64,000 bases of DNA from Antrihabitans stalactiti (GTDB taxonomy: Bacteria > Actinomycetota > Actinomycetes > Mycobacteriales > Mycobacteriaceae): contig NZ_VCQU01000001.1 in assembly GCF_012932915.1 (NCBI RefSeq), positions 62,001 to 126,000 of the forward strand. Reading direction: 5' to 3'. Position numbers and translations under genes: made by a program. Shown here piece by piece: positions 9,440-34,184 of this stretch. The notes under the pieces were generated by a model. It was given only the letters and a program-made list of their open reading frames with translations, ran no database searches and was not told where the DNA came from. Each line of letters begins with the position of its first letter. Positions within the stretch are counted from its first letter, which is position 1.

Positions 9440-11071
<1,632 letters not shown>

Positions 11072-11185: not shown

Positions 11186-11193
11186 CTGAAGCC

Positions 11194-13981: not shown

Positions 13982-13991
13982 CCAACCACCC

Positions 13992-14037: not shown

Positions 14038-14041
14038 CGTT

Positions 14042-14947: not shown

Positions 14948-14954
14948 GATCGAC

Positions 14955-15848: not shown

Positions 15849-15966
15849 ATCGGCCCTACCTCGTCGACCATGGACAACCTTAATCAGAGCGCAAATCAAA
15901 TCCCACTACAAGCCCAACAGACTGGATAATGTTGATCTATCACTGCTGTTCGACGAGAGGCGCGCC

Positions 15967-16968: not shown

Positions 16969-17191
16969 AAGCGCTGAGCAATCGCGCGCGAAATACCGGG
17001 TCGAGCGTTTCCGACCGCAGTTCTGCGAGCGAGCCGGTGGTCCGTCGAACTTGTTCCAGGTAATTCGCGCACCCTTCACACACCGTCAGGTGCGCTTCGA
17101 AGTCCTCCTTCGTCTGTGGGTCGAGCGCATCCTCGAGATACGCGGTCACCAATTCGACGACATCGACGCAATCCATATCCCGTGCAGTCAC
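16946..17191 (-). CDS. Mini zinc-finger (zf-HC2) anti-sigma protein A
   Basis: Small protein of 81 residues (76 if ATG 17176 is used) with the zf-HC2 fold of ZAS anti-sigma factors: an N-terminal Cys (MDCVDVVELVTAYLEDAL) and HLTVCEGCANYLEQ, the H-x3-C-x2-C zinc site. It has no transmembrane helix, so it is a soluble anti-sigma domain. The GTG at 17191 overlaps the sigma stop (GTGA), implying translational coupling and roughly equal synthesis with its partner. By family it binds the sigma factor and releases it on a redox or other signal. Confidence 0.8.
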   Translation of the reverse strand: MTARDMDCVDVVELVTAYLEDALDPQTKEDFEAHLTVCEGCANYLEQVRRTTGSLAELRSETLDPVFRARLLSAFNDWQGR

Positions 17192-17814: not shown

Positions 17815-17907
17815 CCGCAACTCCGCTCGTCTCGCCCCGCAGATAACGCTACTCACTTGCGGCCCCATCGACGGGAAACGTCACGACTGCGTAATCATTG
17901 TCGGCGG

Positions 17908-18219: not shown

Positions 18220-20109
18220 ATGAGTCTTGGTGAACGGTTGGCTATTGCCGACAATCTCGACCGCGTTCACGCGCGCAAAGCGCTGCAACGCGTCGGCATT
18301 TTCGGCGAAGCGACTTCAGCCCTACCAACTGATCGACCCGAAGTCGCCGAATTGCTCGCCGACGACACCTTCGCCGCCGGTCTCGAGGCCCTTGCACGTA
18401 AGTACAACCTCGAGCTCGACGACGTCAAGGCCGATGCCGCGGCGTATTTGCGCGAGATGTCGGCGGTTCATTCCGACCGCGCAGGCAAGATGTGGGAACG
18501 GTTCGGCGGCTGGCTGAATCGTGCGCACGACATCGTCGTCGACGAGGAGGAAGCGCGTCGGTTGCGCGGACTGAGCAAGAAGCATTCGCTGCTCTTCCTG
18601 TTCTCGCACCGGTCATATCTGGATGGGTTCATCCTGCCCGTCACCCTTGCGGCGCACGGCATTTCGGCGCCGTTCACGATGGGTGGCGCCAACCTCAACT
18701 TCTTCCCATTCGGTGCCATCGCCAGCCGCACCGGGGTCGTCTTCATCCGTCGTTCCACTTCCGATCTTCCGGTGTATCGGCTGGCGTTGCGGTCCTACAT
18801 CGGTCAGCTGATCCGCAATCGCCAGAATCTGTGTTGGTCGATCGAGGGCGGCCGCACGCGGACCGGCAAACTTCGCCCACCGGTCTACGGCATCCTGCGC
18901 TACGTTGCCGACGCGGTCGAAGCGTCGACGGGTCCGGACGCGCTCATCGTTCCGGTCTCGTTCGTTTACGAACAATTGCACGAGGTCAGCATGATGACCT
19001 CCGAAGCTCGCGGTGGGAATAAGCGCCCCGAAGACCTGCGCTGGCTGGTGAATTTTGCGCGATCGCAAGGCGAGCACCTCGGGCGCGCCTACCTGGATTT
19101 CGGTACGCCGATTCCCGTCCGCGAACGACTGGCCGAGTTGCGTGGTGAAGACCCCGACGGTGCCCACATCGTCGAACGAATTGCGCTCGATACCTGCCAT
19201 CGCATCAATCGCGCCACACCCGTCACCGCGACGGCAATCGTCTGCGTCGCGATGCTCGCCGCCGACCGTGCACTCAGCCTCGACGAGGTGCTGGGCACGG
19301 TCTCGCCGCTGGCGCGCTACATCGAGCGACGGCAGTGGCAGGTCGCCGGTGCACTGAATCTGACCGACCGCGCGACCGTCCGGCGAACCCTCCAGGAGCT
19401 GGTGTCGTCCGGCGTGCTCACCAGTTACGAGGGTGGCACAGAGACGATTTGGGACATCGGCCCGCAGAAACACCTCGTGGCCGCGTTCTACCGCAATACG
19501 GCAGTGCACATCCTCGTCGACCGGTCGATCGGCGAGCTGGCCTTGGTCGCCGCGACCGAAAGCGACAACGGCGCGCGAGCAGCACTCGACGAGACGCTTC
19601 GGTTGCGCGACCTCCTGAAGTTCGACTTCTTCTTCTCCTCGCGACCCGATTTCGCCGAGGAGATGCGGACCGAACTCGCGACGATCGATGCCGATGCCGC
19701 CGCCCGCATCGACAAATTCGATGCCGAGGAGGCGCGCATCTGGCTGGAGAAGGGCAAACCGCTCATCGCGCATCTGGTCCTTCGGCCGTATCTCGACGCG
19801 TATCACGTCGTTGCCGATCGACTTGCCGCGCTGGAGGACGACGATGAATTCGACGAGAAGCAATTCCTCGACGAATGCCTTCGCGTCGGCAAGCAATGGG
19901 CGATGCAGAAGCGGATCGCCAGCGAGGAATCCGTCTCGCTCGAATTGTTCAAACCGGCGCTGCGGCTGGCCCGCCATCGTGGTTTGGTCGAGTCCACTGC
20001 ACCCGAACTAGCAAAGCGCAGAACGGAATTCGCGAGCGAACTGGCCGAGACCGTGCGGCAGGTCAATCAGGTCGCCGCGATGTCGCAAGCACACACTGGA
20101 CGGTCATGA
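18220..20109 (+). CDS. plsB: Glycerol-3-phosphate acyltransferase (PlsB family)
   Basis: 629-residue PlsB-family enzyme making lysophosphatidic acid from glycerol-3-phosphate and acyl-CoA/ACP, the first step of phospholipid and TAG synthesis. The HX4D catalytic motif is HRSYLD (His130, Asp135); block III is IEGGRTRTGKLRPP. The C-terminal half is helical and lacks a second catalytic site, as in mycobacterial PlsB1/PlsB2 (about 620-790 residues). ATG 18220 is preceded by GAGGGGCGAAGG. It begins a four-gene lipid operon that recalls Rv2482c-Rv2485c; its stop overlaps the next start by 4 bases. Confidence 0.92.
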   Translation: MSLGERLAIADNLDRVHARKALQRVGIFGEATSALPTDRPEVAELLADDTFAAGLEALARKYNLELDDVKADAAAYLREMSAVHSDRAGKMWERFGGWLNRAHDIVVDEEEARRLRGLSKKHSLLFLFSHRSYLDGFILPVTLAAHGISAPFTMGGANLNFFPFGAIASRTGVVFIRRSTSDLPVYRLALRSYIGQLIRNRQNLCWSIEGGRTRTGKLRPPVYGILRYVADAVEASTGPDALIVPVSFVYEQLHEVSMMTSEARGGNKRPEDLRWLVNFARSQGEHLGRAYLDFGTPIPVRERLAELRGEDPDGAHIVERIALDTCHRINRATPVTATAIVCVAMLAADRALSLDEVLGTVSPLARYIERRQWQVAGALNLTDRATVRRTLQELVSSGVLTSYEGGTETIWDIGPQKHLVAAFYRNTAVHILVDRSIGELALVAATESDNGARAALDETLRLRDLLKFDFFFSSRPDFAEEMRTELATIDADAAARIDKFDAEEARIWLEKGKPLIAHLVLRPYLDAYHVVADRLAALEDDDEFDEKQFLDECLRVGKQWAMQKRIASEESVSLELFKPALRLARHRGLVESTAPELAKRRTEFASELAETVRQVNQVAAMSQAHTGRS

Positions 20110-21539
20110 CAACAGTCGACGAGGTGATCAAGGCGGTCGAGGCTGGACCGTCGGGTCCGCGGATCGGTGCTTTTTTCGACCTGGACGGCACGCTGGTCCA
20201 GGGCTACACGGCAGGCACCTTCTACTCCGAATGGGTGCGACGCGGTCAGCTCGCACCGGGCGATCTCGCGAAGATGCTTATTTCCGCGATCGACGGTAGC
20301 GCCCTCGGCGGCGATCCGAAGAAGATCACCGGTGGCGCGCTGTCAGCGTTGAAGGGGCGCAACGCCGACGAGCAGATCGAAATGGGTGAGCGGCTGTTCG
20401 TCCAGAAGATCGCGGGCACGATTCGCCCGGAGGCTAGACAACTGGTCCGAGCGCATCTGCGCAAGGGCCACACGGTTGCCGTTGCCTCGGCCGCGACGCG
20501 TGCCCAGATCGAGCCGCTGGCAAGGGATCTGGGCATAAGCGAGGTCTTGTGTACCGAGCTCGGCGTCGCGAACGGCATCTTCACCGGCGAATCGCCTACT
20601 GGGATTCTCTGGGGTGAGGGGAAGGCAAGTGCGGTCCGAAAGTACGCGCGCACCAAGCAACTCGACCTCCGGGCCAGCCACGCGTACGCCAACGGCCAGG
20701 AAGACATCGCCTTCCTCGCATCGGTCGGCCATCCCAACGCGCTGAATCCGCATCCGGCATTGCGCCAGGCCGCCGCAGACTACGGCTGGCCTGTCCTCAA
20801 TCTGCGCGAACCGCGCTCCCCCGGGCTGCGGTCCTACCTCGGTACGGTCGGCATGCTGGTCGGACTGAACGCGGGGTTCGGGGTCGGTGCCGCTGTCGGA
20901 CTCCTCAACCGCGATCGCCAGCGTGGCGCGAACGCGGCGATCTCGGTCGGTACCGACATCGGGCTGAAACTCGCCGGCATCTCACTCGACGTCATCGGCG
21001 AGCACAACTTGACCAAGGCGCGTCCGGCGATCTTCATCGGCAACCACACCAGCGCGCTCGACCCCGTCATCGTGTTCGCGCTCCTGCGCCGCGACATCAC
21101 CGCTGTCGGCAAGATCGAGGCCAAGAACGACCCGCGGACAATACTTTTCAACACCCTTCTCGCGCCCGCATTCGTCGACCGAGGCAACACGGCACAGGCT
21201 CGTGCCGCCTTGGACAAAGTTGTCGAACGGGTGAAGGACGGTACCTCGATCGTGATCTTCCCGGAGGGGACACGGACTCCGACGCCGGTACTTGCGCCGT
21301 TCAAGAAGGGCGCGTTCCACATGGCGATGCAGGCAGGTGTGCCGATCGTTCCGATCGTGCTGCGCAACGCTGGGGAACTGATGTGGCGTCAATCGGCGGT
21401 AGTAAACCCAGGGACCGTCGAAGTCTGTGTGCTGGACCCGATCCCGACCGACGAGTGGACCGTCGAGACGCTCGATCAGAGGGTGGCGGAAGTGCGACAA
21501 CTTTTCGCCGACACGCTGGACAAGTGGCCGGAAAGATAA
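20106..21539 (+). CDS. plsC: HAD-IB phosphatase / 1-acylglycerol-3-P acyltransferase fusion
   Basis: 477-residue two-domain protein. The N-terminal HAD-IB (SerB-like) hydrolase has FFDLDGTLV with Asp25 and Asp27, and motif III/IV near HAYANGQEDIAFLASVG. A short hydrophobic linker (about residues 240-265) precedes the C-terminal PlsC domain with NHTSALD (His314, Asp319) and FPEGTRTPT. The fusion matches Rv2483c. Likely reactions: acylation of lysophosphatidate to phosphatidate; the HAD domain could remove a phosphate on the way to diacylglycerol, but its substrate is not established. ATG 20106 overlaps the plsB stop. Confidence 0.9.
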   Translation: MTTVDEVIKAVEAGPSGPRIGAFFDLDGTLVQGYTAGTFYSEWVRRGQLAPGDLAKMLISAIDGSALGGDPKKITGGALSALKGRNADEQIEMGERLFVQKIAGTIRPEARQLVRAHLRKGHTVAVASAATRAQIEPLARDLGISEVLCTELGVANGIFTGESPTGILWGEGKASAVRKYARTKQLDLRASHAYANGQEDIAFLASVGHPNALNPHPALRQAAADYGWPVLNLREPRSPGLRSYLGTVGMLVGLNAGFGVGAAVGLLNRDRQRGANAAISVGTDIGLKLAGISLDVIGEHNLTKARPAIFIGNHTSALDPVIVFALLRRDITAVGKIEAKNDPRTILFNTLLAPAFVDRGNTAQARAALDKVVERVKDGTSIVIFPEGTRTPTPVLAPFKKGAFHMAMQAGVPIVPIVLRNAGELMWRQSAVVNPGTVEVCVLDPIPTDEWTVETLDQRVAEVRQLFADTLDKWPER

Positions 21540-21551
21540 GGTGCTGGCGCG

Positions 21552-23030
21552 ATGACGATCGATGACAAGAATCACGACCTGGTCGAAGCCAACCGCCGTG
21601 CGTGGTCGATGGCCTCCCAGTGGGGTGCCGACCATCGGATGAACGAGCTGGAAACGCTCATGTGGCGCAGCGAGCGGCATCCACGCGGGTCGTCGACGAT
21701 CTGCACGCTCATGTTGCTCGATAGCGTTCCCGAGTGGGATCGCCTTCGCGCGGCACATGATTGGGCGACCAAGATGATCCATCGCCTGCGGGAGCGGGTG
21801 CTGGAACCGTTGGTCCCGGTCGGCCCGCCTGCATGGACGGTCGATCCCTCGTTCGATCTCGACTATCACCTGCGTCGAACCCAACTGCCCGCACCCGCGC
21901 GAATGCCGGAGCTACTCGCGTTCGCCCAATCGGCGGCAATGGCGCCGTTCGACCGCACCAGGCCGTTGTGGGAAGGCACCCTGATCGAAGGCTTGCCCGG
22001 TGGCAAGGCTGCGTACTTGCTCAAGTTGCACCATTCGCTCACCGACGGCGTCGGCAGTGTTCAGATGCTGTCGCTCATTCAGAGCCGGACGTCCGAGCAC
22101 ACACCGAAAGATCCCCTCCCTGAGCCAGTTCCGAGTCCCGACGATCCCGACGCACAATCGCTCGCAGTCGACGAGCTGAACGAAACCATTCGCCGAATTC
22201 CGTCGGCCGCGCGTGGGCTGCTCTCGGCGGGCGCTCGCGCGTTGCTGCGCCCGGGCGCCGCCGCCGACGAGGCCCTTCGCCTGGCAGCCTCGGCGCGACG
22301 CACGATTGCTCCACCGCCGGTCGCCGGGTCGCCCCTGTTCCGCATCAGGACCGGAAAGTCGTGGCGTTTCGGCGTTTTCGAGTGCGAATTGAAGGATCTC
22401 AAGGCCGCCGCGAAAGCCGCCAGTGGCTCACTCAACGACGCGTACGTCGCGGTACTGCTGGGCGGCCTGCGGCATTACCACGAGATGTTCGGCTACAGCT
22501 TGGACGAAATCCCGATGGCCATGCCGTTGAGTTTGCGCAAGGCCGACGACCCCATGGGCGGCAACAAGTTTGCGGGTGCGATGTTCGCCGCACCCATCGG
22601 CGTGGTCGACCCCGCCGAGCGAATCGCCATCATTCGCGGAACGGTCCTGTCGCTGCGCGTGGAGCCTGCGCTGGGCAGCATGGAATTCGCCGCACCGGTG
22701 GTCAATCGGTTGCCGTCGGCGCTGGGGGCTGCCGCCATGCGACTCGGGTCGGCCGCCGATATCTCCGCGTCGAACGTTCCAGGCATCCCCTACCCCGTCT
22801 ATATGGCAGGCGCACGGATCGAACGGGCGTACCCTTTCGGACCGCTGCCCGGAGTGGCGATCATGGCGGCGATGGTGTCGCACGCAGGTACTTGCTGCTT
22901 CGGACTCAACTGCGACGGAACCGCCGTGCCCGACGTCGCGTTGCTGGTGCAGTGTATGAAAGAAGGCTTGGAAGAGGTTCTTGCCCTGGGCCGGGGCGAC
23001 GAGGGATCCGACACAGCAACGGAGGACTAG
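21552..23030 (+). CDS. Wax ester synthase / diacylglycerol acyltransferase
   Basis: 492-residue WS/DGAT enzyme, transferring an acyl group from acyl-CoA to diacylglycerol (TAG) or a long-chain alcohol (wax ester). The catalytic HHxxxDG is HHSLTDG (His160, His161, Asp165). Other family blocks: PLWEGTLIEGLPGG before it, the PLSLRKADDPMGGN block and SNVPGIPYPVYMAGARI near residue 410. Length is normal (about 460-500). Third gene of the operon, 12 bases after the HAD-PlsC gene, completing glycerol-3-phosphate to TAG if the HAD domain or another enzyme supplies the phosphatase step. Confidence 0.94.
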   Translation: MTIDDKNHDLVEANRRAWSMASQWGADHRMNELETLMWRSERHPRGSSTICTLMLLDSVPEWDRLRAAHDWATKMIHRLRERVLEPLVPVGPPAWTVDPSFDLDYHLRRTQLPAPARMPELLAFAQSAAMAPFDRTRPLWEGTLIEGLPGGKAAYLLKLHHSLTDGVGSVQMLSLIQSRTSEHTPKDPLPEPVPSPDDPDAQSLAVDELNETIRRIPSAARGLLSAGARALLRPGAAADEALRLAASARRTIAPPPVAGSPLFRIRTGKSWRFGVFECELKDLKAAAKAASGSLNDAYVAVLLGGLRHYHEMFGYSLDEIPMAMPLSLRKADDPMGGNKFAGAMFAAPIGVVDPAERIAIIRGTVLSLRVEPALGSMEFAAPVVNRLPSALGAAAMRLGSAADISASNVPGIPYPVYMAGARIERAYPFGPLPGVAIMAAMVSHAGTCCFGLNCDGTAVPDVALLVQCMKEGLEEVLALGRGDEGSDTATED

Positions 23031-23864
23031 ATGACCGAGCACGCCGATGGCAAGCTCGCAGGAGCCGGTGAGCGAAAGCTGCACTGGCAGAGCTGGATCG
23101 GACCGGACACAAGTCGAGGCGTCATCGTGCTGGTGCACGGCCTCCACGAACACAGCGGTCGGTACGAGTGGGTCGGCACGAGACTCGCCGAGGCAGGCTT
23201 CGCGGTGTACGCCATCGACCACGCCGGGCACGGCCGGTCGGAGGGTCCGCGGGGTCAGATCGGACGTATGTCCGAGGTCGTCGCGGGTGTCGATGCGCTT
23301 CTTGCGCTGGCCGCAGGCCGTCATCCCGGTTTCGCGCCGTTCATCGTTGCGCACAGCATGGGTTCGCTGATCACCCTGGACTACTTGGTCGGCAACCCGC
23401 AGGAACTGCGCGGGGTCGTGCTGTCGGCACCGCCGCTGGTGCAGGACGTCGCGTCGCCGTTGCTATTGAAGGTCGCCAAGGTGCTATCCGTCGTTGCGCC
23501 GAATGCGCCCACGGTCGAACTGGATTCGGAGACGGTGAGCCGGGACCCGGCAATCGTCGAGTACCACCGAACCAATCCGTTGATGGTCAAGGGCAAGATC
23601 CGCGCTCGCACCGGTGCCGAATTCATCGACGCGGTCGATCGAGTGACGGCGGGGCTCGCAAAGGTGACGCAGCCGATTCTGGTGATCGCCGGATCCGCCG
23701 ACAAGCTCGTGAAGCCCGAGGGCGCCGAGATCGTCGTCGAAGGAGCAGGTTCGACCGACAAGACGCTCAAGATCTACGACGGTCTGTACCACGAGGTCTT
23801 CAACGAGCCGGAAAAAGAAGCGGTCATCGCCGACGTCATCGCCTGGCTGCAGGAACACAGCTGA
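23031..23864 (+). CDS. Monoacylglycerol lipase-like alpha/beta hydrolase
   Basis: 277-residue alpha/beta hydrolase of the monoglyceride-lipase type. Oxyanion region VHGLHEHSGRYEWVG (about residues 31-45), nucleophile Ser109 in AHSMGS, Asp in AGSADKLVKPEGA and His in GLYHEVFNE form the triad. Start codon ATG 23031 follows the DGAT stop directly. It resembles mycobacterial Rv0183, and its position at the end of a TAG operon suggests turnover or remodelling of glycerides. The stop is followed after 8 bases by a double palindromic element. Confidence 0.9.
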   Translation: MTEHADGKLAGAGERKLHWQSWIGPDTSRGVIVLVHGLHEHSGRYEWVGTRLAEAGFAVYAIDHAGHGRSEGPRGQIGRMSEVVAGVDALLALAAGRHPGFAPFIVAHSMGSLITLDYLVGNPQELRGVVLSAPPLVQDVASPLLLKVAKVLSVVAPNAPTVELDSETVSRDPAIVEYHRTNPLMVKGKIRARTGAEFIDAVDRVTAGLAKVTQPILVIAGSADKLVKPEGAEIVVEGAGSTDKTLKIYDGLYHEVFNEPEKEAVIADVIAWLQEHS

Positions 23865-23872
23865 CCCACCCC

Positions 23873-23970
23873 GTGCGCGCGTCTCACCCCTCCAGGGGTA
23901 AAAATCACGCACAGTAGAGGGCGTAGAACTGTGCGTGAATTTCGCCCTTCTGGGGGTTAGACGCGCGCAC
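23873..23970. repeat. Palindromic element, family B (two inverted units)
   Basis: Two related units of about 40 bases, 23873-23912 (GTGCGCGCGTCTCACCCC...) and 23931-23970 (...GGTTAGACGCGCGCAC), lie head to head, so the 98-base block can also fold as one long hairpin. It starts 8 bases after the lipase stop and separates the TAG operon from the next operon. Likely a strong transcription terminator or insulator. Related to 7458-7501 and 51867-51906. Confidence 0.75.
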
Positions 23971-24073
23971 GGGGGTGGGGCTGCCCCTATATGTTGCGGT
24001 TTCGTATTGCTTGCCGATTACTGTACGAATGGTTTCGGGTTCGTTTCCACCGACCGACCGCAAAGGGGAATGC

Positions 24074-26776
24074 GTGCAGATTCTGGGAGCAAGCACCCCC
24101 AGCACGGCAATTCGAGAACTTGCCGGCGGTAAAGCACGCGGGCTGCACTCCCTGACCTGTCACGGTTTCAAGGTCCCCGAGTGGGCGGCGATCGGGGTCG
24201 ACGCCTTCGCTGCGTTCATTGCCGCCAATGACGTGAATTCGCTACTCGCAGAGCTGACTTCGGCAACAGACCTCGCCACCGCGCTGGACCGCGCGGCCAC
24301 CGTACGGACCGCCATTCTCGGCTCCCCGATCCCGGAACCAGTGCGCGATATGGTGGCGCTCGCCTACGAATCGGTCGGCTCGGGACGGGTTGCCGTGCGC
24401 TCGTCCGGCGCCGACGAGGACGGCGTGGACCGCTCGCTCGCCGGGCAATTCGATTCCTTCCTCAACGTCACCACGCTCGACGACGTCCTCGACGCAGTGC
24501 GCCGATGCTGGGCGTCCGGTTTTTCGGATCGATCGGTCCGCTACCTGTTCGAGCACGGGACCGGCGTGTCGAAAGGCGGCATCGCCGTCGTCGTTCAGCG
24601 GCTGGTGGACGCCAAGTCGAGCGGGGTCATCTTCACCGCCAATCCGATCACCGGCGCACGCAACCAGATCGCGATCAGTTCGGTCTACGGCTTGGGCGAG
24701 GGCTTGGTCTCCGGCGCGGTCGATGCCGATTACGTAGTGATCGACAAGTCGACAGGCGCCGTCGACGACCGCGTCGTCGGCGAGAAGTCCGAGCAATTCG
24801 TCCCTACCGGCGCCGCGGGGTGCGCGCCCACCCCTGTGCCCGAGCAGCTACGCAACCAACCGACGCTCAGCGACGACGAACTCGCGCAACTGGCCGAACT
24901 CGGGATCGCCATCGAGTCGCTCCACGACGGACCGCAGGACATCGAGTGGGTCGGCGACGGCGAAAACTTCTGGGTCCTTCAGGTCCGGCCGATCACTGCA
25001 CTGCCCGACGCCGTCGATCCGTCGAAGGGCGTCATTCTCGGCGCCACCGAAGCCGTCACCGACGACGAGATGCGAATTTGGGACAACTCCAACATCATCG
25101 AGAGTTTCAGCGGCATCAGTTCACCGCTGACCCTCACCACCGCCGCGGACGTCTACGGCCGCGTCTACCGCAGTTACGCACGGTCACTACGTGTTCCGGA
25201 AGCGCAGCTGCGGCAGATGGAGGTGTGGACCCCGGCGATGCTCGGCTACTTCCACGGCCGAGTCTACTACAACCTGCTGCACTGGTACCGGATGGTGCAC
25301 ATCGCGCCTGGCTATCCGCTGAACTGGCGGGTGCTGGAGGTCGCCCTCGGCGTCGACGAATCCATCGAAAACGACCTCGCAAAGACGTTGCGACCGTTCA
25401 CTTTCAAGACGATCGCGCACAAGGGCTTCTCTCGCGCAGTCACTACCGCCACCTACATCAAACGCTTCGCCGAGATCGACAGCAAGACAGAGTCGTTCAT
25501 GACGGAGTTCTACAAGGTCTACGACGAATACGACGCCGTCGACTACAACACGCTGCCCGGCGAGGAGGTGTATCGCCGCTACCGAAAGTTGGAGCGCGAT
25601 CTCGTGGACCGCTGGGGTCCGATGATGGTGCTCGACGCGATTCTGTTGACGTCGTCGGGCCTGCTCTTCCTGTTGACGAAGCTGTTCCTGAAAGACACTC
25701 CCGAATGGTTCCAATACGCGGTCGTCAGTCCAGGTTCCGACGTCGAATCTGCCGAACCTGCACGGGCGATGCAGGATATGGCGAAGTTCGTCCGGGCGGA
25801 CCCGGAGCTGGCGCGTTTCATCAACACCACGCCACCCGAAAAGGCATACGCCGCTGTGCAAGCATCGGACTGGCAGGAGTTCGCCGGGCAGGTCGACGAG
25901 TACATCGCCAAGTATGGCTATCGCAGCCTCGACGAACTGAAGCTCGAAACACCTGACCTACGCGAGGATCCGGCCAGCTTGTTCGTCATGCTGCGCAGCG
26001 CTCTTCCCGATGCGCCACTGTCCAAGCGCGCGGACGCCGACGACTATCTCGACTCGCGCCTGCACGGCGTCCGCCGCAAGATCTACGAGAAGCTCCGCGG
26101 CAAGACAAGCCGAGCCCTCGGAAACCGGGAACGATTGCGGTTCTGCCGAACTCGGGCGTTCGGCATGGTCAAGCGGACGATCCGCGCAATGGGTCGCGAC
26201 CTGGCACGCCAGGGCATTCTGGACGAGTTCACCGACGTGTTCTACCTGCGCCTCGATGAATTGCACGGCTGCTACGAGGGAACGACTGACACGGCTGCGC
26301 TGGCAGGTCTGGTTGCGGCACGAAAGGCGCAGCGCGCCTTGGATGCCGAGTTGGTCGCGCCGGCGCGGTTCGTCACCAGAGGACGGGCGTTCCACAACGA
26401 CGAATTGGCCGCGCAAGGCTGGGTACCGATCAGCGCCACCGAATCTGCCACCGCCGGAACCGTATTGCGCGGTACTCCGTCCGCATCCGGCGTCGTACGG
26501 GGTCGCGCGGTCGTGGTGACCGAGCCGCAGGACGTGGCGGGCGGAATTCTTGTCGCGTATCGAACCGATCCAGGCTGGGTTGCCGCACTGCCGTCGGCAT
26601 CGGCACTGGTGATCGAACGCGGTAGCCCGTTGACGCACGTCGCAATCGTTGCCCGCGAACTCGGCGTGCCGACTGTCGTCCAGATCAAAGACGTGACAAA
26701 GCTGGTCCGCACGGGAATGAACATCGAAGTAGACGGCGCCAGCGGCACCGTGACGATTCTGTCCGAGGAGAACTGA
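24074..26776 (+). CDS. PEP-synthase-like phosphotransferase (PPDK_N + PEP-utilizer)
   Basis: 900-residue protein with the architecture of PEP synthase and rifampin phosphotransferase: N-terminal ATP-grasp (GGKARGLHSLTCHGFKVP; VAVRSSGADEDGVDRSLAGQ; LQVRPITALP near residue 315), a long central region beginning NIIESFSGISSPLTL, and a C-terminal swivelling phosphohistidine domain with His855 in GSPLTHVAIVARE. Such enzymes move a phosphoryl group from ATP through the His to a second substrate. The central domain is unlike gluconeogenic PpsA, so pyruvate is an unlikely acceptor. GTG 24074 follows AAAGGGGAA. First gene of an eight-gene operon; gap to the next gene is 4 bases. Confidence 0.82.
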   Translation: MQILGASTPSTAIRELAGGKARGLHSLTCHGFKVPEWAAIGVDAFAAFIAANDVNSLLAELTSATDLATALDRAATVRTAILGSPIPEPVRDMVALAYESVGSGRVAVRSSGADEDGVDRSLAGQFDSFLNVTTLDDVLDAVRRCWASGFSDRSVRYLFEHGTGVSKGGIAVVVQRLVDAKSSGVIFTANPITGARNQIAISSVYGLGEGLVSGAVDADYVVIDKSTGAVDDRVVGEKSEQFVPTGAAGCAPTPVPEQLRNQPTLSDDELAQLAELGIAIESLHDGPQDIEWVGDGENFWVLQVRPITALPDAVDPSKGVILGATEAVTDDEMRIWDNSNIIESFSGISSPLTLTTAADVYGRVYRSYARSLRVPEAQLRQMEVWTPAMLGYFHGRVYYNLLHWYRMVHIAPGYPLNWRVLEVALGVDESIENDLAKTLRPFTFKTIAHKGFSRAVTTATYIKRFAEIDSKTESFMTEFYKVYDEYDAVDYNTLPGEEVYRRYRKLERDLVDRWGPMMVLDAILLTSSGLLFLLTKLFLKDTPEWFQYAVVSPGSDVESAEPARAMQDMAKFVRADPELARFINTTPPEKAYAAVQASDWQEFAGQVDEYIAKYGYRSLDELKLETPDLREDPASLFVMLRSALPDAPLSKRADADDYLDSRLHGVRRKIYEKLRGKTSRALGNRERLRFCRTRAFGMVKRTIRAMGRDLARQGILDEFTDVFYLRLDELHGCYEGTTDTAALAGLVAARKAQRALDAELVAPARFVTRGRAFHNDELAAQGWVPISATESATAGTVLRGTPSASGVVRGRAVVVTEPQDVAGGILVAYRTDPGWVAALPSASALVIERGSPLTHVAIVARELGVPTVVQIKDVTKLVRTGMNIEVDGASGTVTILSEEN

Positions 26777-26780
26777 GACG

Positions 26781-28478
26781 ATGACAGATCAGACCACTCC
26801 CGTTGCGCACCTCCGTGACTGGCTGACCAACCCCGCTGCAGGCACTGGCGTCTATTTCGGTGACGAAGCGGACGGCTGGAATTTCTACTCCTACGTCGAC
26901 CTTGCCGATCGCGCTCGGCGCATCGCCACGCTGCTGCACGAACGCGGTCTGCGGACCGGCGAAAACGTCTGCGTCGTCATGCCGACCACCATCGACTGCG
27001 TCGCGGCGTTCTATGCATCCTGGGCCGCGGGCGGGTTGTTCACCCCGATCACTCCGCCGATGTTCGAAGACCTCGACACCTACACCAAGCACATGAGCGG
27101 GATCCTCGACGTCGCCGATCCTGCGCTGATTGTCACTTCGCGCGATTTCGCCGACTTGGTGCGGGGTGCGATCGCCGCGTCGGGTCGCACGGACGAGCCA
27201 CTCATCATCGACGACGCCGTTCTCGCAGCAACCGCACCGATCGCGGAATTGGTAGAGCCTGGTGAGCTGTGCCTGCTGCAATTCACCTCCGGCTCGACGG
27301 GTTCGCCGCGCGGCGTGGAGATCACGTGGGGCAACCTGGCAGACAACGTCATTCGGATCGCAGGTGTTGTGCAATGGCAGGACGGCGATTCGACGGCGTC
27401 GTGGCTGCCGCTCTACCACGATATGGGCCTCATCGGCGCGCTGTTCATGACCATCACCGTGCAAGGTGATCTGTACTTGCTGCGCCCGGACCAGTTCGTG
27501 CGCGACCCCGCCCGGTGGTTGCGGGCGATGACGCACTGCAAGCATTGCCCCTCCCCCGCCTTCACGCTGAAATACGTTGCGCGCCGCGTCCGTCCGCAGG
27601 AGCTGGAGGGTCTGGACTTCTCCAATTGGCGCACGCTTGCGCTCGGGTCCGAGCCGGTGCCGCCCGGCGATGTCGTAGAGTTCTCGAACTTCCTCGCGGG
27701 CAACGGATTCGATATGTCGGCGCTGACCATCGCGTACGGCATGGCGGAGAACACCCTGCACATCACCACGTCCGCGCGCACATCGCCGGTCGTAGCGCTG
27801 CGCGTGGACTACGCGGCGTTGCGGTTCGGCAAACCGGTCGACGTGCTCGACCGGCGTGAACTAGTTGCGGGCGTAGAGATTTCCGGCGACGGCTGGACCA
27901 GTGGCCTCGGACGATCCACCGAGACGTCGCAGGTTGCGATCATCGACGACGACGGCACCGAGTTGCCGGACGGCACGATCGGCGAGGTCGTGGTAACTGG
28001 CGAATCCGTCGCACGGGGTTACCAAGGCGACTATTCGAACTCGAGCACCCGGATCGTCGACGGCAAGATTTTCTCCGGCGACGCCGGGTTCCTGTACGAC
28101 GGCGAGCTTTTCGTCCTCGGCCGGATGGGAACGAGCCTGAAGGTCCGTGGGCGGTCTGTCTTCATGGAAGACGTCGAGGCGCGAGTCGCGGCCGAAATCG
28201 GTATTGCACCAGGCAAAGTCGCGGGCGTTGCGATCCCCAATGCGAGCGAGCCGATGGTCGCGGTATTCGTTGAACGTGACGGTGGCGAGTGGGTCGACGG
28301 TGCCCGTCGCGCGGCGGCTGCCGTCGTCGGGTCGACCAAGTCGGTCCGGGTGGTGAGCGGTCCGCGGGGGCTGATCAGGCGCACCTCGAGCGGGAAGCCC
28401 CGCAGACGCGTCATGTGGCAGTTGTTGCAGGAAGGCGCATTGCACGGCGCGGTGGATCACGACGCGGGTGCTACATGA
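26781..28478 (+). CDS. Fatty-acyl-AMP ligase-like (AMP-binding) enzyme
   Basis: 565-residue ANL-superfamily adenylating enzyme. The P-loop is LQFTSGSTGSPRGVEIT (about residues 165-180), with DSTASWLPLYHDMGLIGALF and YGMAENT typical of fatty-acyl-AMP ligases of the FadD32/FAAL type, and DAGFLYDGELFVLGRMGTSLKVRGRS near the hinge. Predicted to activate an acyl chain as acyl-AMP and load it onto a carrier protein; a free-standing ACP gene lies two genes downstream. No condensation or carrier domain is fused. ATG 26781; its stop overlaps the next start (ATGA). Substrate chain length cannot be read. Confidence 0.85.
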   Translation: MTDQTTPVAHLRDWLTNPAAGTGVYFGDEADGWNFYSYVDLADRARRIATLLHERGLRTGENVCVVMPTTIDCVAAFYASWAAGGLFTPITPPMFEDLDTYTKHMSGILDVADPALIVTSRDFADLVRGAIAASGRTDEPLIIDDAVLAATAPIAELVEPGELCLLQFTSGSTGSPRGVEITWGNLADNVIRIAGVVQWQDGDSTASWLPLYHDMGLIGALFMTITVQGDLYLLRPDQFVRDPARWLRAMTHCKHCPSPAFTLKYVARRVRPQELEGLDFSNWRTLALGSEPVPPGDVVEFSNFLAGNGFDMSALTIAYGMAENTLHITTSARTSPVVALRVDYAALRFGKPVDVLDRRELVAGVEISGDGWTSGLGRSTETSQVAIIDDDGTELPDGTIGEVVVTGESVARGYQGDYSNSSTRIVDGKIFSGDAGFLYDGELFVLGRMGTSLKVRGRSVFMEDVEARVAAEIGIAPGKVAGVAIPNASEPMVAVFVERDGGEWVDGARRAAAAVVGSTKSVRVVSGPRGLIRRTSSGKPRRRVMWQLLQEGALHGAVDHDAGAT

Positions 28479-30103
28479 CGGCACCCGAACTCATCCTGTC
28501 CGCCGACTACATTCGCACGCTGCTCGACGAGACCACCCAGCTCAGCACCGTTCCCGACGACTGCGCTGTTCTGCTCGAAGGCTCGATCGCGGAGGGCTTC
28601 GGCAACGACGGCTCCGACATCGACTTCCTTGTGGTGTCGAAGGGCAGCGAGCCGATGCCGACGATGCCGACGGTGCTGTTCGTCGACGGCCGCCGCGTCG
28701 AGGTCCGGACCCGCTCGGAAGCGCAACTGCGGCAACAGCTCGACCGCGTCACCAGCGGCGAGGCGGACGAAGACACCCTGAACCGGGTCCAGCGCTTTCT
28801 TCGCGCACACGTGGTTCGCGAGGGCAATCCCGATATCGCGGGGTTGCGCGCAGTTGTGCCGTACGACGAGTTTGCTCGCGTGATGCAGACGTGGTGGTCC
28901 GCGCGAGCCGTGCAGGCGCTGCGTTACTCCGTTGCGCTCGCGGCCATGGGCGCCGACGAGGAAGCCGATGGCTGGGCACGTGACGGCCTCGCACAGGCGA
29001 TGAAGGCGTGGGCCGCGAGCCTCGGCGAGACGTATCTCGAATCCAAATGGCTACCACGGCAACTGGATCGGATCGGCCCTCACGAGGTGGCGGCGCGATA
29101 CCGTTCGGTCGAGTCCGGCGCTTCGCTCGACGACGTGTTGGCCGCCGCAGCGCTCACCGGGATCCCCGCAGTCGACAACACGCCAGATGCGGTCCGCCTG
29201 CAACGGGTTCCGGACGTCACGACCTGGCCGATCGGCGGGCGGCTGCACGTCGTGCGCAATCGACGAGACGTGTTCGTCCTGTCCGAGGCAACCGGGCAAG
29301 CCTGGCGATCCGTCGTTTTCGGACAATCCGTGGCGACGGTGTCGACGCGTTTCGGGATCGGCTCGGAGCTGGCAGAATTCGTTCGTCTCGGCTTCGTCGG
29401 GCTGCGCTGGCACGCCGAACCGCTGCGGCCGGCATTGGCAATGTGCGAGGTGGCCGGCGCGTATTCACCGCCGCCCGGGACAGTGGTACCTACGCTCGGC
29501 GTCGGGGGTGCCGCCCAGGACCCGAACGCCGCGGTCACGCTGTCGCCGCTGGCAGCCGACCGCTTCGCCGAATGCGCCACGACCCTGATCTGGTCGAACA
29601 TCGTGTTGGAGAACGCCCGCGAGGATTGCCGTGGTGCGCTGAAGAATTCACAGTGGCAAGTTGCAGACATCGCCGCACACCGGCTGATCGCCATGTCGAC
29701 GCGAGTGCTGCTGTCCGCGTTCGGCATTCATCCGCTTCCTGCCGACGTCGCGCCACAGGCAGCGCTCCGCCGATTGATTCCGGCGAGCACGCCAGGCAAG
29801 GCGGAATTGCTCGCGAAGCTCGCACGTGCACAACACGTGCGGTTCGACGACCCGCAATCGGATCGAAACCCCGCCGAACTGGACGCTTATGCCGAGGCTG
29901 TTCGTGAAATCGCCAACGGTTCCGCGTTCCCGGATTCCTTCGCATCCCGCGAACAATGGCGGCATACGCTCGACATCAGTTACGACTGGCTGCGGCTAGC
30001 CGGGTACCTCAACGCGAAGTTGCCGCTCGACGAGGCCCGAGACCTGTTGACGTCCGGTGGGGTTCAGCCGCACGCGCGCTCCGATGCCGAGGGGGAACGA
30101 TGA
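28475..30103 (+). CDS. Nucleotidyltransferase-fold protein of unknown function
   Basis: 542-residue protein not matching a family I can name as a whole. The N-terminal about 110 residues show a nucleotidyltransferase fold: LLEGSIAEGFGNDGSDIDFL (Gly36-Ser37, Asp48 and Asp50 as the paired metal ligands) and RRVEVRT (Glu76 as third acid). Residues about 250-310 (HVVRNRRDVFVLSEATGQAW ... LAEFVRLGFVGL) look like a PqqD/RRE-type winged helix; this is a weak fold guess. The rest is helical. ATG 28475 overlaps the ligase stop; its own stop overlaps the ACP start. Probably transfers a nucleotidyl group to a pathway intermediate or partner protein; the substrate is unknown. Confidence 0.65.
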   Translation: MTAPELILSADYIRTLLDETTQLSTVPDDCAVLLEGSIAEGFGNDGSDIDFLVVSKGSEPMPTMPTVLFVDGRRVEVRTRSEAQLRQQLDRVTSGEADEDTLNRVQRFLRAHVVREGNPDIAGLRAVVPYDEFARVMQTWWSARAVQALRYSVALAAMGADEEADGWARDGLAQAMKAWAASLGETYLESKWLPRQLDRIGPHEVAARYRSVESGASLDDVLAAAALTGIPAVDNTPDAVRLQRVPDVTTWPIGGRLHVVRNRRDVFVLSEATGQAWRSVVFGQSVATVSTRFGIGSELAEFVRLGFVGLRWHAEPLRPALAMCEVAGAYSPPPGTVVPTLGVGGAAQDPNAAVTLSPLAADRFAECATTLIWSNIVLENAREDCRGALKNSQWQVADIAAHRLIAMSTRVLLSAFGIHPLPADVAPQAALRRLIPASTPGKAELLAKLARAQHVRFDDPQSDRNPAELDAYAEAVREIANGSAFPDSFASREQWRHTLDISYDWLRLAGYLNAKLPLDEARDLLTSGGVQPHARSDAEGER

Positions 30104-30336
30104 GCACCGCCGAGCAAGTGCGCGAGATCGTCAAGTCGATGGCGCCCGAACTGCCAGCGGCGGTGTCCGATGATCAGCGGCTGATCGACGACCTCTTCTA
30201 TGATTCCTTGCGACTGATGGAGCTGACCGTCGTTCTCGAGCGGGCCTTCGATCTGCCGCCGTACAAGCCCGAGGATCTCGCCGGGGTACTCACGGTCGGT
30301 GCCGTCGTCCAACTGATCGAGGGGGCGACATCGTGA
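30100..30336 (+). CDS. Free-standing acyl carrier protein
   Basis: 78-residue acidic four-helix carrier protein. The attachment serine for 4'-phosphopantetheine is in DLFYDSLRLMELTVVLE (DSL motif, about residue 36). Helix III region reads PEDLAGVLTVGAVVQLIE. ATG 30100 overlaps the previous stop and its stop overlaps the reductase start by 4 bases, so it is made within the operon with its partners. It differs from the fatty-acid-synthase ACP and is probably dedicated: the fatty-acyl-AMP-ligase-like enzyme would load it, and the reductase-like SDR and AfsA-like protein would act on the bound chain. Confidence 0.9.
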   Translation: MSTAEQVREIVKSMAPELPAAVSDDQRLIDDLFYDSLRLMELTVVLERAFDLPPYKPEDLAGVLTVGAVVQLIEGATS

Positions 30337-31406
30337 CTCATGTATTGCTCACCGGCGCCAGCGGATTGGTCGGCGTAGAGGTGTTGTCGCAGTTGGTCGG
30401 TCGCGGCGACGCAGTGTCGGCGGTCGTACACCGGAACTCGACTTTCGTTGCCAACGACGGCCGTGCGGTGCCCGGTGCCGCAGTCGTACACGGCAACGTG
30501 CGGGCACCATCCTTCGGACTGTCGGACGACGAGCGCGCCGCACTCGGCATGTCGGTGACCGCCATCGTTCACTGCGCCGCGACCACCGACTTCGGTGCTC
30601 GCCAAACCGAATACGACGAGCTGAACGTTGCCGGTACCGAGCACGCCATCGCGCTCGCCCGCGAATGGACCGTTCCACTGATCTACGTGAGCACCGCGTA
30701 CGTTTGCGGCACCCGCAACGGAACGATTCTCGAAAGCGACCTCGACACAGGGCAGACGTTCGGAAATGCCTACGAGGCCAGCAAGTTCCGGGCCGAGCAG
30801 CTGGTCGGCGCAGCCGCAGCCGCTGGTCTGCGCACCTGCATCGTGCGCCCCGGCATCGTGACCGGTCGCGCGACCGACGGCGCGATACGCGAGCACAAAA
30901 ATCTCTACACGGTTGTGAAGCTCATCGTCGAAGGCAAGCTCCGATCCTTGCCGGGTCGCTATGACGCGACGCTGTCGCTGGTGCCGGTCGATTACGTCGC
31001 CGATGTCATCGTGGGTGCCGTCGTCGACCTCGATCGCGCCGCCGGGAAGACGTTCCACGCCGCCGGGAACGAAACGATCTCGCTGCGTGAGATTTCCGAT
31101 GTCCTGGCGGAGTACCCCTCGTTCGAGGTCGCGAAATATGTTCCGCCCTCGACGTTCTCGGTCGACAATCTGGATCGCAATGAGCGCGAGTACTACCGGC
31201 GCATCGGCGTGCTGTACGAGAGCTACTTCGATCGGCGTCCGAGCTTCGACACCACCAACACTCGTGAACTACTGGGCGCCCCGCCGCCCGCAACCGGAAA
31301 GGACTACCTCCGAACACTTCTCGATCATTGCCTCGATACCGGGTATCTAGGAATTCCGCTGCCGTCGATCGATGACGTCCTTCGAAGAATTGGAGCGACA
31401 ACATGA
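30333..31406 (+). CDS. Thioester-reductase/epimerase-like extended SDR
   Basis: 357-residue extended SDR. Rossmann motif LTGASGLVGVEVLSQL near the start, VHCAATTDFGA, catalytic YEASK (AYEASKFRAEQLV, about residue 145-149), then a substrate domain with IVRPGIVTGRATDG. The overall look is that of male-sterility/thioester-reductase-like proteins that reduce acyl thioesters, or of NAD(P)-dependent sugar epimerases. Being encoded between an ACP and an AfsA-like gene favours an acyl-ACP or ketoacyl substrate, but this is inference. GTG 30333 overlaps the ACP stop. Confidence 0.78.
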   Translation: MTHVLLTGASGLVGVEVLSQLVGRGDAVSAVVHRNSTFVANDGRAVPGAAVVHGNVRAPSFGLSDDERAALGMSVTAIVHCAATTDFGARQTEYDELNVAGTEHAIALAREWTVPLIYVSTAYVCGTRNGTILESDLDTGQTFGNAYEASKFRAEQLVGAAAAAGLRTCIVRPGIVTGRATDGAIREHKNLYTVVKLIVEGKLRSLPGRYDATLSLVPVDYVADVIVGAVVDLDRAAGKTFHAAGNETISLREISDVLAEYPSFEVAKYVPPSTFSVDNLDRNEREYYRRIGVLYESYFDRRPSFDTTNTRELLGAPPPATGKDYLRTLLDHCLDTGYLGIPLPSIDDVLRRIGATT

Positions 31407-32350
31407 CCGAGGACGTTGCGCGTTCGCTCACGACGATGCCCGAGAAGGTCGCGGCCTACGTCACCGATACCTATTTTCTGGAAAGTGTCGAACAGCTTTC
31501 CCGGCTCGGCGCCGATGTCGAATCGTTCGCGCTCCGGCATGGTCTGCTGTTCCTCAAGCCGGACGCTATCGTGGCACGCGCTGTCGAGCCGACGCTGCAG
31601 TGGCTGGCAGACAACGGGTTTCGCGTCGTCTCCGCGCGAACAGTGGCCGCGAACGGTCATTTCGTGCGCTCGCTGTGGTACTTCCAGTGGAACATCGCGT
31701 CGGCCGAGCGACGCACACTTGCCGACCTGCTCCTCAACGTGTCGTCGTCGCTGCTGCTCGTGGTCACCGACGCTGCCGACGAGTTGCCGACGTCGGTGCG
31801 ACTGACCGAGCGCAAGGGTCCGACCGCGCCGTCGAAACGGCAGCCGGGTCATCTGCGCCACCTCCTCGGCGGCGGCACCTATCTGCTGAATATGGTTCAT
31901 ACGCCTGATGATCCAGCAGATGTGGTGCGGGAACTCGGAATCTACTTCACCGAGCACGAGCGACGCGTCGTGATCGGTGAAGCTTTGACGGGCATCGACC
32001 GCAGTGCTGTGGCGAAGCATTTGGGACAGCAACTGTACGAGACCGTCGAAGCAGGCAGTTTCGAACGGTCCGACGCCGAGGCCGCGCTGAAGAAGCGGTT
32101 GCGGTCGGGCGAGGAACTGCCGCAACGACTTCAAGAAAAGGCGCGGCTGGTCCTCGAAGGTGACACAGTGCCTAACGCTGCGTGGGCCGAACTGCTCACC
32201 ACTGCATGGGATGTCGACTGGCCGCTCGACCCGTGGCCGGTCCTGGTTGTGGGCTCGGCTGTCCTGCCGATGCGGACCGCTACTGGCACACAGATCCTCG
32301 GGGCCGCCGACCCCGCGGACTGGCGTGCGCGAATGGGAGGGCAGTCGTGA
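31403..32350 (+). CDS. Diverged nucleoside-diphosphate-kinase-domain protein
   Basis: 315-residue protein. Residues about 46-185 align by eye with nucleoside diphosphate kinase: LLFLKPDAI (the KPD strand, Lys52), GPTAP for the usual GATxP, PGHLRHLL with Arg152 for PGTIRGDF, and LLNMVHTPDDPADVVREL with Asn163 and His166 for NxIHGSDSxESAxREI, so the phosphohistidine is kept. Residues about 100-125 contain extra hydrophobic sequence, and a C-terminal extension of about 130 residues has no match. Ordinary NDPK is about 136-140 residues, so this is a specialised relative. ATGA and GTGA overlaps at both ends. Possible phosphoryl transfer to or from a pathway nucleotide. Confidence 0.7.
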   Translation: MTEDVARSLTTMPEKVAAYVTDTYFLESVEQLSRLGADVESFALRHGLLFLKPDAIVARAVEPTLQWLADNGFRVVSARTVAANGHFVRSLWYFQWNIASAERRTLADLLLNVSSSLLLVVTDAADELPTSVRLTERKGPTAPSKRQPGHLRHLLGGGTYLLNMVHTPDDPADVVRELGIYFTEHERRVVIGEALTGIDRSAVAKHLGQQLYETVEAGSFERSDAEAALKKRLRSGEELPQRLQEKARLVLEGDTVPNAAWAELLTTAWDVDWPLDPWPVLVVGSAVLPMRTATGTQILGAADPADWRARMGGQS

Positions 32351-33285
32351 CTACCCCACACACGCACGCCATCTCGCGGGAGCTCGTGCATCGCGCCCAG
32401 ATCGCCGAAGTGTTCGTCACATCGTTGACGAAGCGCCGCGACGACCAGTTCGTCACGACCGCGCAGCTGCCTCGATCCCACGCGTTCTTCGGCGACCACA
32501 CCGGCACGCTCGAGAACGCCTACGACCCGATGATGGTCATGGAAGCTGCCCGGCAGAGCGGAATGGTGGTGGTGCACGAGCATTTCGACGTTCCGTTCAC
32601 CATGGCCTTCCTTCTCCGCACCTTCAACGGACGGGCGATCGACGGGCGCGCGTGGGACATCGATGCCAAGCCTGCGGAGCTGACGATGGTCACGCAGGTG
32701 ACCAGGCTGGTCCATCAGCACGACGCGCTCACGGGGATGAGCGTGACGGTCGACATCAAGCGGTCCGGGATGCCGATGATGGTGGTCGACAGCAAATTCT
32801 CCTGGATTCCCAAACCGCAGTGGATAAGTCTGCGCCGTGACATCCGCTCCAAAGCAGGATTGCCCGATGTGGTCGAGCCGATTCCGCACTGCGTACCCGT
32901 TGCCGCAGCGTCGGTCGGCAGGCACCTGAACAGAAATGTCGTGATCAGCCCGCCGAAGCTGTACGGCAATACAGCCAAGTCGATGTTGGTCGTGGACACC
33001 GGTCACGCAACGCTTTTCGATCATCCGGTCGACCACATGCCAGGCTCGCTGCAGATCGAGGCATGCCGGCAGATCGGTGTTGCGGCACTGCGATCCCGGT
33101 TCCCGGACGCAACACCCGGCCTGGACTGCGTGAAGAGCACCTTCGACGCGTTCCTCGAGCTCGATCGCCCGAGCGTCGTCATCTCCGAGATAGCCGAGGT
33201 GACCGACGACCGTGCCGTCGTCTCGTGCAGCATTCGCCAGTTCGGCCGTCCTGCTGCGCAGTTCGTCGCAGGATTCGTGCTGTGA
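32347..33285 (+). CDS. AfsA-type (A-factor biosynthesis) double-hotdog protein
   Basis: 312-residue protein with both halves of the AfsA hotdog domain. First repeat: VHRAQIAEVFVTSLTKRRDD, AQLPRSHAFFGDH and DPMMVMEAARQSGMVVVHEHF. Second repeat: VVISPPKLYG, LFDHPVDHMPGSLQIEACRQIG. In Streptomyces AfsA/ScbA transfers a beta-ketoacyl group from ACP to dihydroxyacetone phosphate, the committed step to gamma-butyrolactone signals. Here it is encoded with an ACP and a reductase, which suits the chemistry, but no ArpA-like receptor gene adjoins it. GTG 32347 overlaps the previous stop. Confidence 0.87.
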   Translation: MTTPHTHAISRELVHRAQIAEVFVTSLTKRRDDQFVTTAQLPRSHAFFGDHTGTLENAYDPMMVMEAARQSGMVVVHEHFDVPFTMAFLLRTFNGRAIDGRAWDIDAKPAELTMVTQVTRLVHQHDALTGMSVTVDIKRSGMPMMVVDSKFSWIPKPQWISLRRDIRSKAGLPDVVEPIPHCVPVAAASVGRHLNRNVVISPPKLYGNTAKSMLVVDTGHATLFDHPVDHMPGSLQIEACRQIGVAALRSRFPDATPGLDCVKSTFDAFLELDRPSVVISEIAEVTDDRAVVSCSIRQFGRPAAQFVAGFVL

Positions 33286-34184
33286 TCTCGTCGCTCCAAC
33301 GCGTCGCCCACTTCATCGTCGTCATGTACAAGCCGCACTACATGGTCTACGGCGTGTTGTGGGTGCTCGCCCTCGAAGGCACCGCGGCCGTCGCGACCGC
33401 TGGACCGTTGCCGTACCGGCCCGGCCGCGACACCGTGATCCGCATCGTCGTCGTTTTGCTCGTCTTGCTCTATCTGCGCATGGTCGACGAGCAGAAGGAT
33501 CTCGAGTACGACCGCGTCCACAATCCCGATCGCCCGCTCGTCACCGGAGCGGTCAGCGCGACCGAATTGCGCGCGTCGATGGCCGTGCTGGCCGCGATAT
33601 CCGTTGCGGCAAGCGCGTTCTTGTCGGTCGGCTCGGTTGTGGTCATGTGCCTGACCTTGCTGTATGGACTGTTCCTCTGGGCTGCGGAAGCCGCGCTCCC
33701 TCGGGTCCGCGACGACATCATGCTCAACCTCGCTGTGACCTACCCGGTCCAATTGCTCGTCACCGCATACGTTCTCGTGTCGGCGGTCGACACCGGCGAA
33801 GTGGGATCGCGGTGGCAGGCCGTCGCTGTCGTCGCCGTCTTCGCCGGTGCATTCCTGCAGTTCGAGTTTGCGCGCAAGACGTCCAAAGTGCATGCGCCGA
33901 GCGAACACCTGTATTCGAACGCACTCGGCGCAACCGGAAGTGCCACCGCGATAGCGGTCTTCGCGGTGGTGGCGGTCGGCGCCGAAGTGCTGCTCGCACG
34001 CCCATGGCAATTGGACGGTGCGGCAGCGGTGTTCGGCTGGCTGCCCCCGGTGCTGCTCGCCCTTCCCGCGGTCGGGTTAGCGAAGTTTCTTCGCACCGAT
34101 CGCGAGACCTTTCCGCTGGGACCACCGGTGGTGTTCGTGCTCGCGCTCTACGCCGTTCTGATTGCGCAAGCAACGCTCGCGTGA
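33282..34184 (+). CDS. UbiA-family membrane prenyltransferase
   Basis: 300-residue integral membrane protein with about eight or nine hydrophobic helices. The first Asp-rich motif is LRMVDEQKDLEYDRVHNPDRP with Asp69, Asp73 and Asp77, the metal-diphosphate site of UbiA enzymes. The second motif (about residues 196-215, KTSKVHAPSEHLYSNALG) lacks the usual DxxxD but matches an atypical UbiA subgroup. GTG 33282 overlaps the AfsA-like stop. Last gene of the operon; it converges on the P450 gene with 2 bases between stops. It could attach an isoprenoid chain to the pathway product at the membrane. Confidence 0.82.
   Translation: MISSLQRVAHFIVVMYKPHYMVYGVLWVLALEGTAAVATAGPLPYRPGRDTVIRIVVVLLVLLYLRMVDEQKDLEYDRVHNPDRPLVTGAVSATELRASMAVLAAISVAASAFLSVGSVVVMCLTLLYGLFLWAAEAALPRVRDDIMLNLAVTYPVQLLVTAYVLVSAVDTGEVGSRWQAVAVVAVFAGAFLQFEFARKTSKVHAPSEHLYSNALGATGSATAIAVFAVVAVGAEVLLARPWQLDGAAAVFGWLPPVLLALPAVGLAKFLRTDRETFPLGPPVVFVLALYAVLIAQATLA

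Follow-up and report, generated by a model that had tools for sequence, protein, structure and literature searches.

The 64,000-nucleotide window of the Antrihabitans stalactiti genome analyzed here contains an eight-gene operon (24074-34184) that most probably encodes a salinipostin-type butyrolactone-phosphate lipid pathway resembling spt of Salinispora (probability about 0.78, based upon sequence comparison). This reading rests on gene-for-gene homology to a Salinispora tropica operon that fits the published spt cluster, on runs of all eight genes in nine further genomes, and on invariant residues in the encoded proteins. The operon represents a real, conserved pathway that is not new in kind and opens no new class. 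An initial annotation of the window had described the arrangement as unlike that of any described cluster, a view that was not retained since, of the nine genes in the spt-fitting operon, eight are present. The operon lacks the ninth, for the luciferase-like Spt8, and the pathway is for this reason named spt-like and not spt.

The frames, starts, and stops of the eight open reading frames (ORFs) were checked, confirming the initial description of eight genes on one strand; a 4-base gap separates the first two (PEPS and FAAL), and the other six junctions are 4-base overlaps. The genes are given below; the numbering Spt1-Spt9 was assigned in this analysis and follows gene order in the S. tropica operon.

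24074-26776, + strand: PEPS, phosphoenolpyruvate (PEP)-synthase-like phosphotransferase (Pfam, NCBIfam); Spt1 homologue, 48-49% identity
26781-28478, + strand: FAAL, fatty-acyl-AMP ligase (Pfam, NCBIfam); Spt2 homologue, 39-40% identity
28475-30103, + strand: nucleotidyltransferase (NTase), aminoglycoside-nucleotidyltransferase-like domain and C-terminal helical domain; Spt3 homologue, 41-44% identity
30100-30336, + strand: acyl carrier protein (ACP), phosphopantetheine serine S36; Spt4 homologue, 35-38% identity
30333-31406, + strand: short-chain dehydrogenase/reductase (SDR), thioester-reductase type; Spt5 homologue, 47-48% identity
31403-32350, + strand: nucleoside diphosphate kinase (NDPK)-domain protein (PF00334); Spt6 homologue, 36% identity
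32347-33285, + strand: AfsA/ScbA-type butyrolactone synthase with two hotdog stretches (PF03756, NF041195); Spt9 homologue, 29% identity
33282-34184, + strand: UbiA-superfamily membrane enzyme; Spt7 homologue, 35-36% identity

Homologues of all eight proteins are encoded in a single operon of genome G273, which is taken to be S. tropica CNB-440; there, nine joined genes span 11.1 kb (locus L036, 4979-16073) in the order PEPS, FAAL, NTase, ACP, SDR, NDPK, UbiA, luciferase-like protein (PF00296), and AfsA. Identities to the window's proteins over aligned residues range from 29 to 49%, Spt1-Spt6 are collinear with their counterparts, and tight 4-base overlaps are found in both operons. The Salinispora AfsA fell short of the NF041195 cut-off (195.2 vs 200), and Spt7 exceeded the UbiA Pfam cut-off (39.2 vs 34.2). 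The AfsA gene of the nine-gene operon is the sole one in that genome. In the table of PMC7888443, spt is listed as a salinipostin cluster of the butyrolactone class (RS20900-RS20940, 11.1 kb), and the salinosporamide cluster is listed at RS05130-RS05275. The nine-gene operon agrees with spt in size, class, and the gene number implied by the locus tags, taken to rise in steps of five, and so fits the published cluster. The same genome contains two SAM_HAT-family genes, one of which, at 1.163 Mb, we take to fit SalL, the chlorinase of the salinosporamide cluster, provided that the locus tags are evenly spaced. Passages of PMC8609351 present spt as one of nine experimentally characterized Salinispora clusters, which the table of that paper records in 112 strains belonging to seven species. 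A literature search yielded no gene-by-gene account of spt, and a search on Antrihabitans gene clusters returned only papers on other subjects. Work by Kudo and colleagues in 2020 and by Creamer and colleagues in 2021 reportedly linked spt to salinipostins and butyrolactones, with spt-like clusters in many actinomycetes, and the latter is said to have found that spt9 encodes a butyrolactone synthase. The loci described below look to be of that kind.

Conservation of the block in other genomes, which the initial annotation had put forward as a check, was found: nine genomes besides that of the window carry the full eight-gene set in one run, some with a reductase between AfsA and UbiA. Because all eight genes recur together in this way, the gene arrangement is not a product of chance. 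The NDPK protein was searched in 101 related genomes, of which 12 matched, the window's own included (E <= 0.001). Nine of the other eleven were compared at full length, the two weakest matches (G010 and G097) being left out. All eight genes occurred in one run in five of the nine (G001, G003, G024, G049, and G031), while four (G093, G084, G071, and G064) contained only NDPK-like genes with no adjoining operon, and the NDPK protein was rejected as a pathway marker on this ground. There was no NDPK match in the same-genus genome G002. An NTase profile matched nine of 397 genomes of the order at E <= 1e-20, comprising that of the window, three known beforehand, and five new ones. Four of the new genomes (G148, G345, G388, and G273) possess all eight genes, and G400 possesses four (ACP, SDR, PEPS, and NTase). 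No match to the NTase query was detected in a plasmid collection at 1e-5. Two loci were obtained from a contig scan with the NDPK protein. Streptomyces anandii (L026) contains six of the eight genes within 20.9 kb, and L016 and L025 are one locus. Eleven AfsA-bearing loci (the window, L016-L020, L026, L036, and L038-L040), including operons of the same genus and elsewhere in the window's family, thereby form a comparative set.

Residues retained among the homologues include His855 of PEPS, within an invariant S-P-L-T-H-V-A stretch, and E35-G36-S37, D48, D50, and E76 of the NTase, which are invariant in all 12 homologues of each. Likewise invariant, in 11 of 11 homologues, are S36 of the ACP, K52, R152, N163, and H166 of the NDPK protein, and the first Asp motif of UbiA (D69-x3-D73-x3-D77). 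The invariant residues of PEPS, NTase, ACP, and NDPK are of the kind used in catalysis.

Pfam and NCBIfam agreed with the family names initially given, with refinements for three proteins: PEPS shows only two domains, the SDR belongs to the thioester-reductase type, and UbiA falls under its Pfam cut-off. The PEPS domains are PPDK_N (ATP-binding) and a C-terminal PEP-utilisers mobile domain (phospho-His), with no other Pfam domain at 0.01. PEP synthase (PpsA) contains a C-terminal PEP/pyruvate-binding TIM-barrel domain, which was not found in PEPS; the protein nonetheless scored 1013 against the cut-off of 883 for NF004881 ('phosphoenolpyruvate synthase', NCBIfam). FAAL contains an AMP-binding domain, and its top NCBIfam match was fatty acyl-AMP ligase (282.5 bits, under the model cut-off of 600). 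The NTase matched NTP_transf_2 (23.3 bits vs a cut-off of 21), and the fold of residues 5-229 resembles ANT(4'')/kanamycin nucleotidyltransferase, a fold of enzymes that place a nucleotide on a small-molecule hydroxyl. The ACP matched PP-binding (26.7 vs 20.8) and the SDR matched NAD_binding_4 and the thioester-reductase-type model TIGR01746 (133 bits, 1.5e-38, under the cut-off of 213), its nearest solved chain being named MxaA (4u7w). The NDPK-domain protein matched NDK (43.1 bits vs 27); its structure model had a mean predicted local distance difference test (pLDDT) score of 42 and was discarded. AfsA exceeded the NCBIfam ScbA/BarX cut-off (NF041195, 207.5 vs 200), and its search of the window's own genome returned no second match at E <= 0.001.

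UbiA prenyltransferases contain two Asp-rich diphosphate-binding motifs. The operon's UbiA scored 24.0 bits against a Pfam cut-off of 34.2, and by eye its second Asp motif was not recognizable in an alignment of seven. Furthermore, no prenyl-diphosphate synthase was found by Pfam among the 40 window proteins scanned, and salinipostins carry an alkyl ester. A prenyl donor for UbiA is therefore not supported. A second UbiA-family gene (58024-59037), adjoining transketolase genes, scored 220 bits, far above the Pfam cut-off and in contrast to the weak match of the operon's UbiA.

Passages of PMC6681047 describe salinipostins, cyclipostins, and cyclophostin as bicyclic enol phosphates that are related in structure to A-factor; the two members named there have a phosphate ester of C15 or C16. 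This places the cyclipostins and cyclophostin of Streptomyces in the same compound class as salinipostins. Enol phosphates of the salinipostin type phosphorylate active-site serines, and related compounds inactivate serine hydrolases including mycobacterial lipid enzymes (PMC6681047, in the same passages). No cyclipostin or cyclophostin gene cluster was found by titles in the literature search. Since salinipostins are cyclic enol phosphates, a product of this type would account for three phosphoryl/nucleotidyl enzymes beside AfsA.

The operon should work like spt. Homology supports the earlier suggestions of a single acyl pathway in which the ligase would load the ACP, of an AfsA that uses a phosphorylated acceptor, and of a phospho-butyrolactone as a possible product. 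By homology, AfsA would couple dihydroxyacetone phosphate with a beta-ketoacyl thioester, giving an ester that would close to a butenolide phosphate, a chemistry established for AfsA of Streptomyces griseus. A flavin-type reductase would then saturate the ring; as the window has neither Spt8 nor a nitroreductase in the run, a general cell enzyme may reduce the ring or the ring may stay unsaturated. From their families, FAAL would activate a fatty acid and load it onto the ACP, and the thioester-reductase SDR would free an aldehyde or alcohol that supplies the long alkyl ester. PEPS, the NTase, and the NDPK-like protein may activate phosphate and hydroxyls such that the enol and the alkyl alcohol would be esterified on phosphorus. 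The UbiA-like membrane protein could link the lipid chain with the lactone phosphate, which is water-soluble. The predicted product is a butyrolactone of the cyclic enol-phosphotriester type, or a compound closely related to it, and free butyrolactones may be made as well. As in the A-factor pathway of S. griseus (AfsA/BprA), the acceptor for the AfsA-type synthase would be a phosphorylated C3 compound, but the extra activating and lipid enzymes set this pathway apart.

Ring-reductase candidates were sought by tblastn in the fetched stretches, with one nitroreductase and Spt8 as queries. A nitroreductase was found in five of the 11 AfsA-bearing loci (L016, L017, L019, L026, and L040, with the family checked for L017 and L026), the luciferase-like Spt8 was found in one (L036), and neither query matched in five (the window, L018, L020, L038, and L039), which suggests ring reduction by interchangeable enzymes or none. 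The genome of the window has one nitroreductase match (53%), far from the operon at contig 1:1,096,091. This gene was rejected as a lost ninth member because the same query matches 64 of the 101 genomes, the window's own included (E <= 0.001), many at 45-54% identity and most without an NDPK match, so that the match is not specific. The missing reductase is possibly novel, as is the PEPS-NTase-SDR-ACP set in a genome without detected AfsA (G400, below). A tentative and rather doubtful extension is that the five loci without a ring-reductase match (the window and four other complete ones) make unsaturated butenolide phosphotriesters and, jointly, that PEPS-NTase-SDR-ACP constitutes a portable module for activated alkyl phosphates that serves more than one product class. 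To our knowledge, a butenolide phosphotriester series is not known from Salinispora.

Of the ten loci having both FAAL and NTase, eight encode them as a single reading frame, and only in Salinispora and the window are they separate genes with a 4-base overlap. The same-genus copies in G001 and G003 are fused and have a nitroreductase present. Since these copies are fused and the window's split falls in the linker relative to them, the split is probably secondary, with sequencing error as the alternative. PEPS, NTase, and SDR were present in 12 of 12 loci compared, a set chosen by NDPK or NTase match that includes G400 and leaves out the NDPK-only loci L021-L024. Fusions, losses, and swaps of this kind hint at enzyme partners, namely the ligase with the nucleotidyltransferase, and PEPS with the NTase and SDR.

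Several observations weigh against an spt-like function. AfsA, the key enzyme, is just 29% identical to Spt9, and the window has AfsA followed directly by UbiA where Salinispora has UbiA-Spt8-AfsA. Spt8 had no tblastn match in the 64-kb window at E 1e-4, and the 26 luciferase-like matches elsewhere in the genome are distant (best 39% over 179 residues). The Salinispora NTase scored 17.9 against the Pfam nucleotidyltransferase cut-off of 21, and the G400 NTase had no Pfam match. Within the 20.9 kb of the S. anandii locus FAAL and ACP are absent, the remainder of that genome not having been searched for them; homologous clusters may thus differ in product. Furthermore, spt products were undetected in the Salinispora cultures of one study, according to a passage of PMC8609351.

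An alternative, judged unlikely, is that only free A-factor-like butyrolactone signals are made, with the phosphoryl enzymes serving precursor supply or turnover and no triester formed. The AfsA score above the ScbA/BarX butyrolactone family cut-off is consistent with this, as are two TetR proteins on other contigs (L084, C23:411135; L085, C22:319741) that match positions 1-190 of the 191 in the ScbR model with 147.4 and 145.7 bits, just under the cut-off of 150 and followed by 82.1 for the next. However, a simple A-factor pathway has no use for FAAL, ACP, thioester reductase, NTase, and UbiA, which are nonetheless kept together in the nine further genomes, and of the 224 candidates in the window's genome, 150 were scored and none exceeded the ScbR cut-off. 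A canonical A-factor locus has an ScbR/ArpA-type receptor gene beside afsA, whereas neither of the two TetR genes seen in the window, in a scan that left out some small ORFs, is ScbR-like: one (7528-8091) scored 48.7 bits vs 150, and the other (about 40.2-40.7 kb) had no ScbR match at 1e-4. Butyrolactone sensing is possible. In S. anandii, an ScbR-type receptor above cut-off and a second AfsA protein are located near the spt-like genes (L026, 14131-16951).

Considerably less probable is a novel lipid, either prenylated or activated by a nucleotide, that has no relation to salinipostins. The NTase fold, being that of small-molecule nucleotidyltransferases, would suit such a product, and the family-library matches of UbiA are prenyltransferases; gene-for-gene homology to the spt-fitting operon, the unrecognizable second Asp motif, and the lack of a prenyl-diphosphate synthase among the scanned proteins argue against it. 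The lowest probability of all was assigned to a decaying copy in which the reductase was lost and an indel broke the FAAL-NTase fusion. In its favor, the copies in G001 and G003 are fused and have a nitroreductase, and the window's operon is split at the linker and has no nitroreductase there. Against it, none of the eight frames is broken, the junctions are of 4 bases and the invariant residues are kept, FAAL and NTase are likewise separate genes in Salinispora, and the four other complete loci also lack a reductase match. An spt-like pathway is the reading preferred to all three.

In G400, no AfsA match was detected in the whole genome; no control matched there, yet the same query matched in G273. 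The ACP-SDR-PEPS-NTase set of this genome (L037, 1539-12729) is located beside thymidylate-kinase-like, methyltransferase, P450, and acyl-CoA dehydrogenase genes, and possibly belongs to a different pathway sharing the PEPS-NTase-SDR-ACP module. Another locus (L024 in G064, 2331-17828) contains three NDPK-domain matches within 16 kb that are related to the operon's NDPK. The SDR-like and NTase-like matches at this locus are weak, neither AfsA nor UbiA matched there, and the NTase-like ORF has no Pfam match.

The genome is 6.76 Mb in size and comprises 26 contigs, the window being part of contig 1. The genes scanned on the two sides of the operon are mainly housekeeping-like, with glycerol-3-phosphate acyltransferase (GPAT), WS/DGAT, and hydrolase genes upstream and P450, glycosyltransferase, SUF, transketolase, and transaldolase genes downstream. 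Among the 40 window proteins scanned, no further natural-product island was recognized. The glycerolipid genes for GPAT, HAD-acyltransferase, WS/DGAT, and alpha/beta-hydrolase (18220-23864) run in one direction and directly precede the operon. The flanking WS/DGAT and alpha/beta-hydrolase genes (21552-23864) were considered as pathway members and rejected, as neither had a tblastn match around the operon in the fetched stretches of the other loci.

Just upstream of the operon is a 106-bp imperfect palindrome (23869-23974) with 47-nt arms that are 83% complementary and a 12-nt spacer. It represents a dispersed repeat resembling miniature inverted-repeat transposable elements (MITE) or repetitive extragenic palindromes (REP), with 82 matches in the genome, both strands counted, and 40 of 132 candidates scored. 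A perfect inverted repeat at 23906-23937 was rejected as an operator since it is the core of this dispersed palindrome. In three further copies (L073-L075, at C23:24226, C26:209504, and C23:76387) the arms are kept and the 12-nt center varies. Retention of the arms suggests that selection or a mechanism acts on them.

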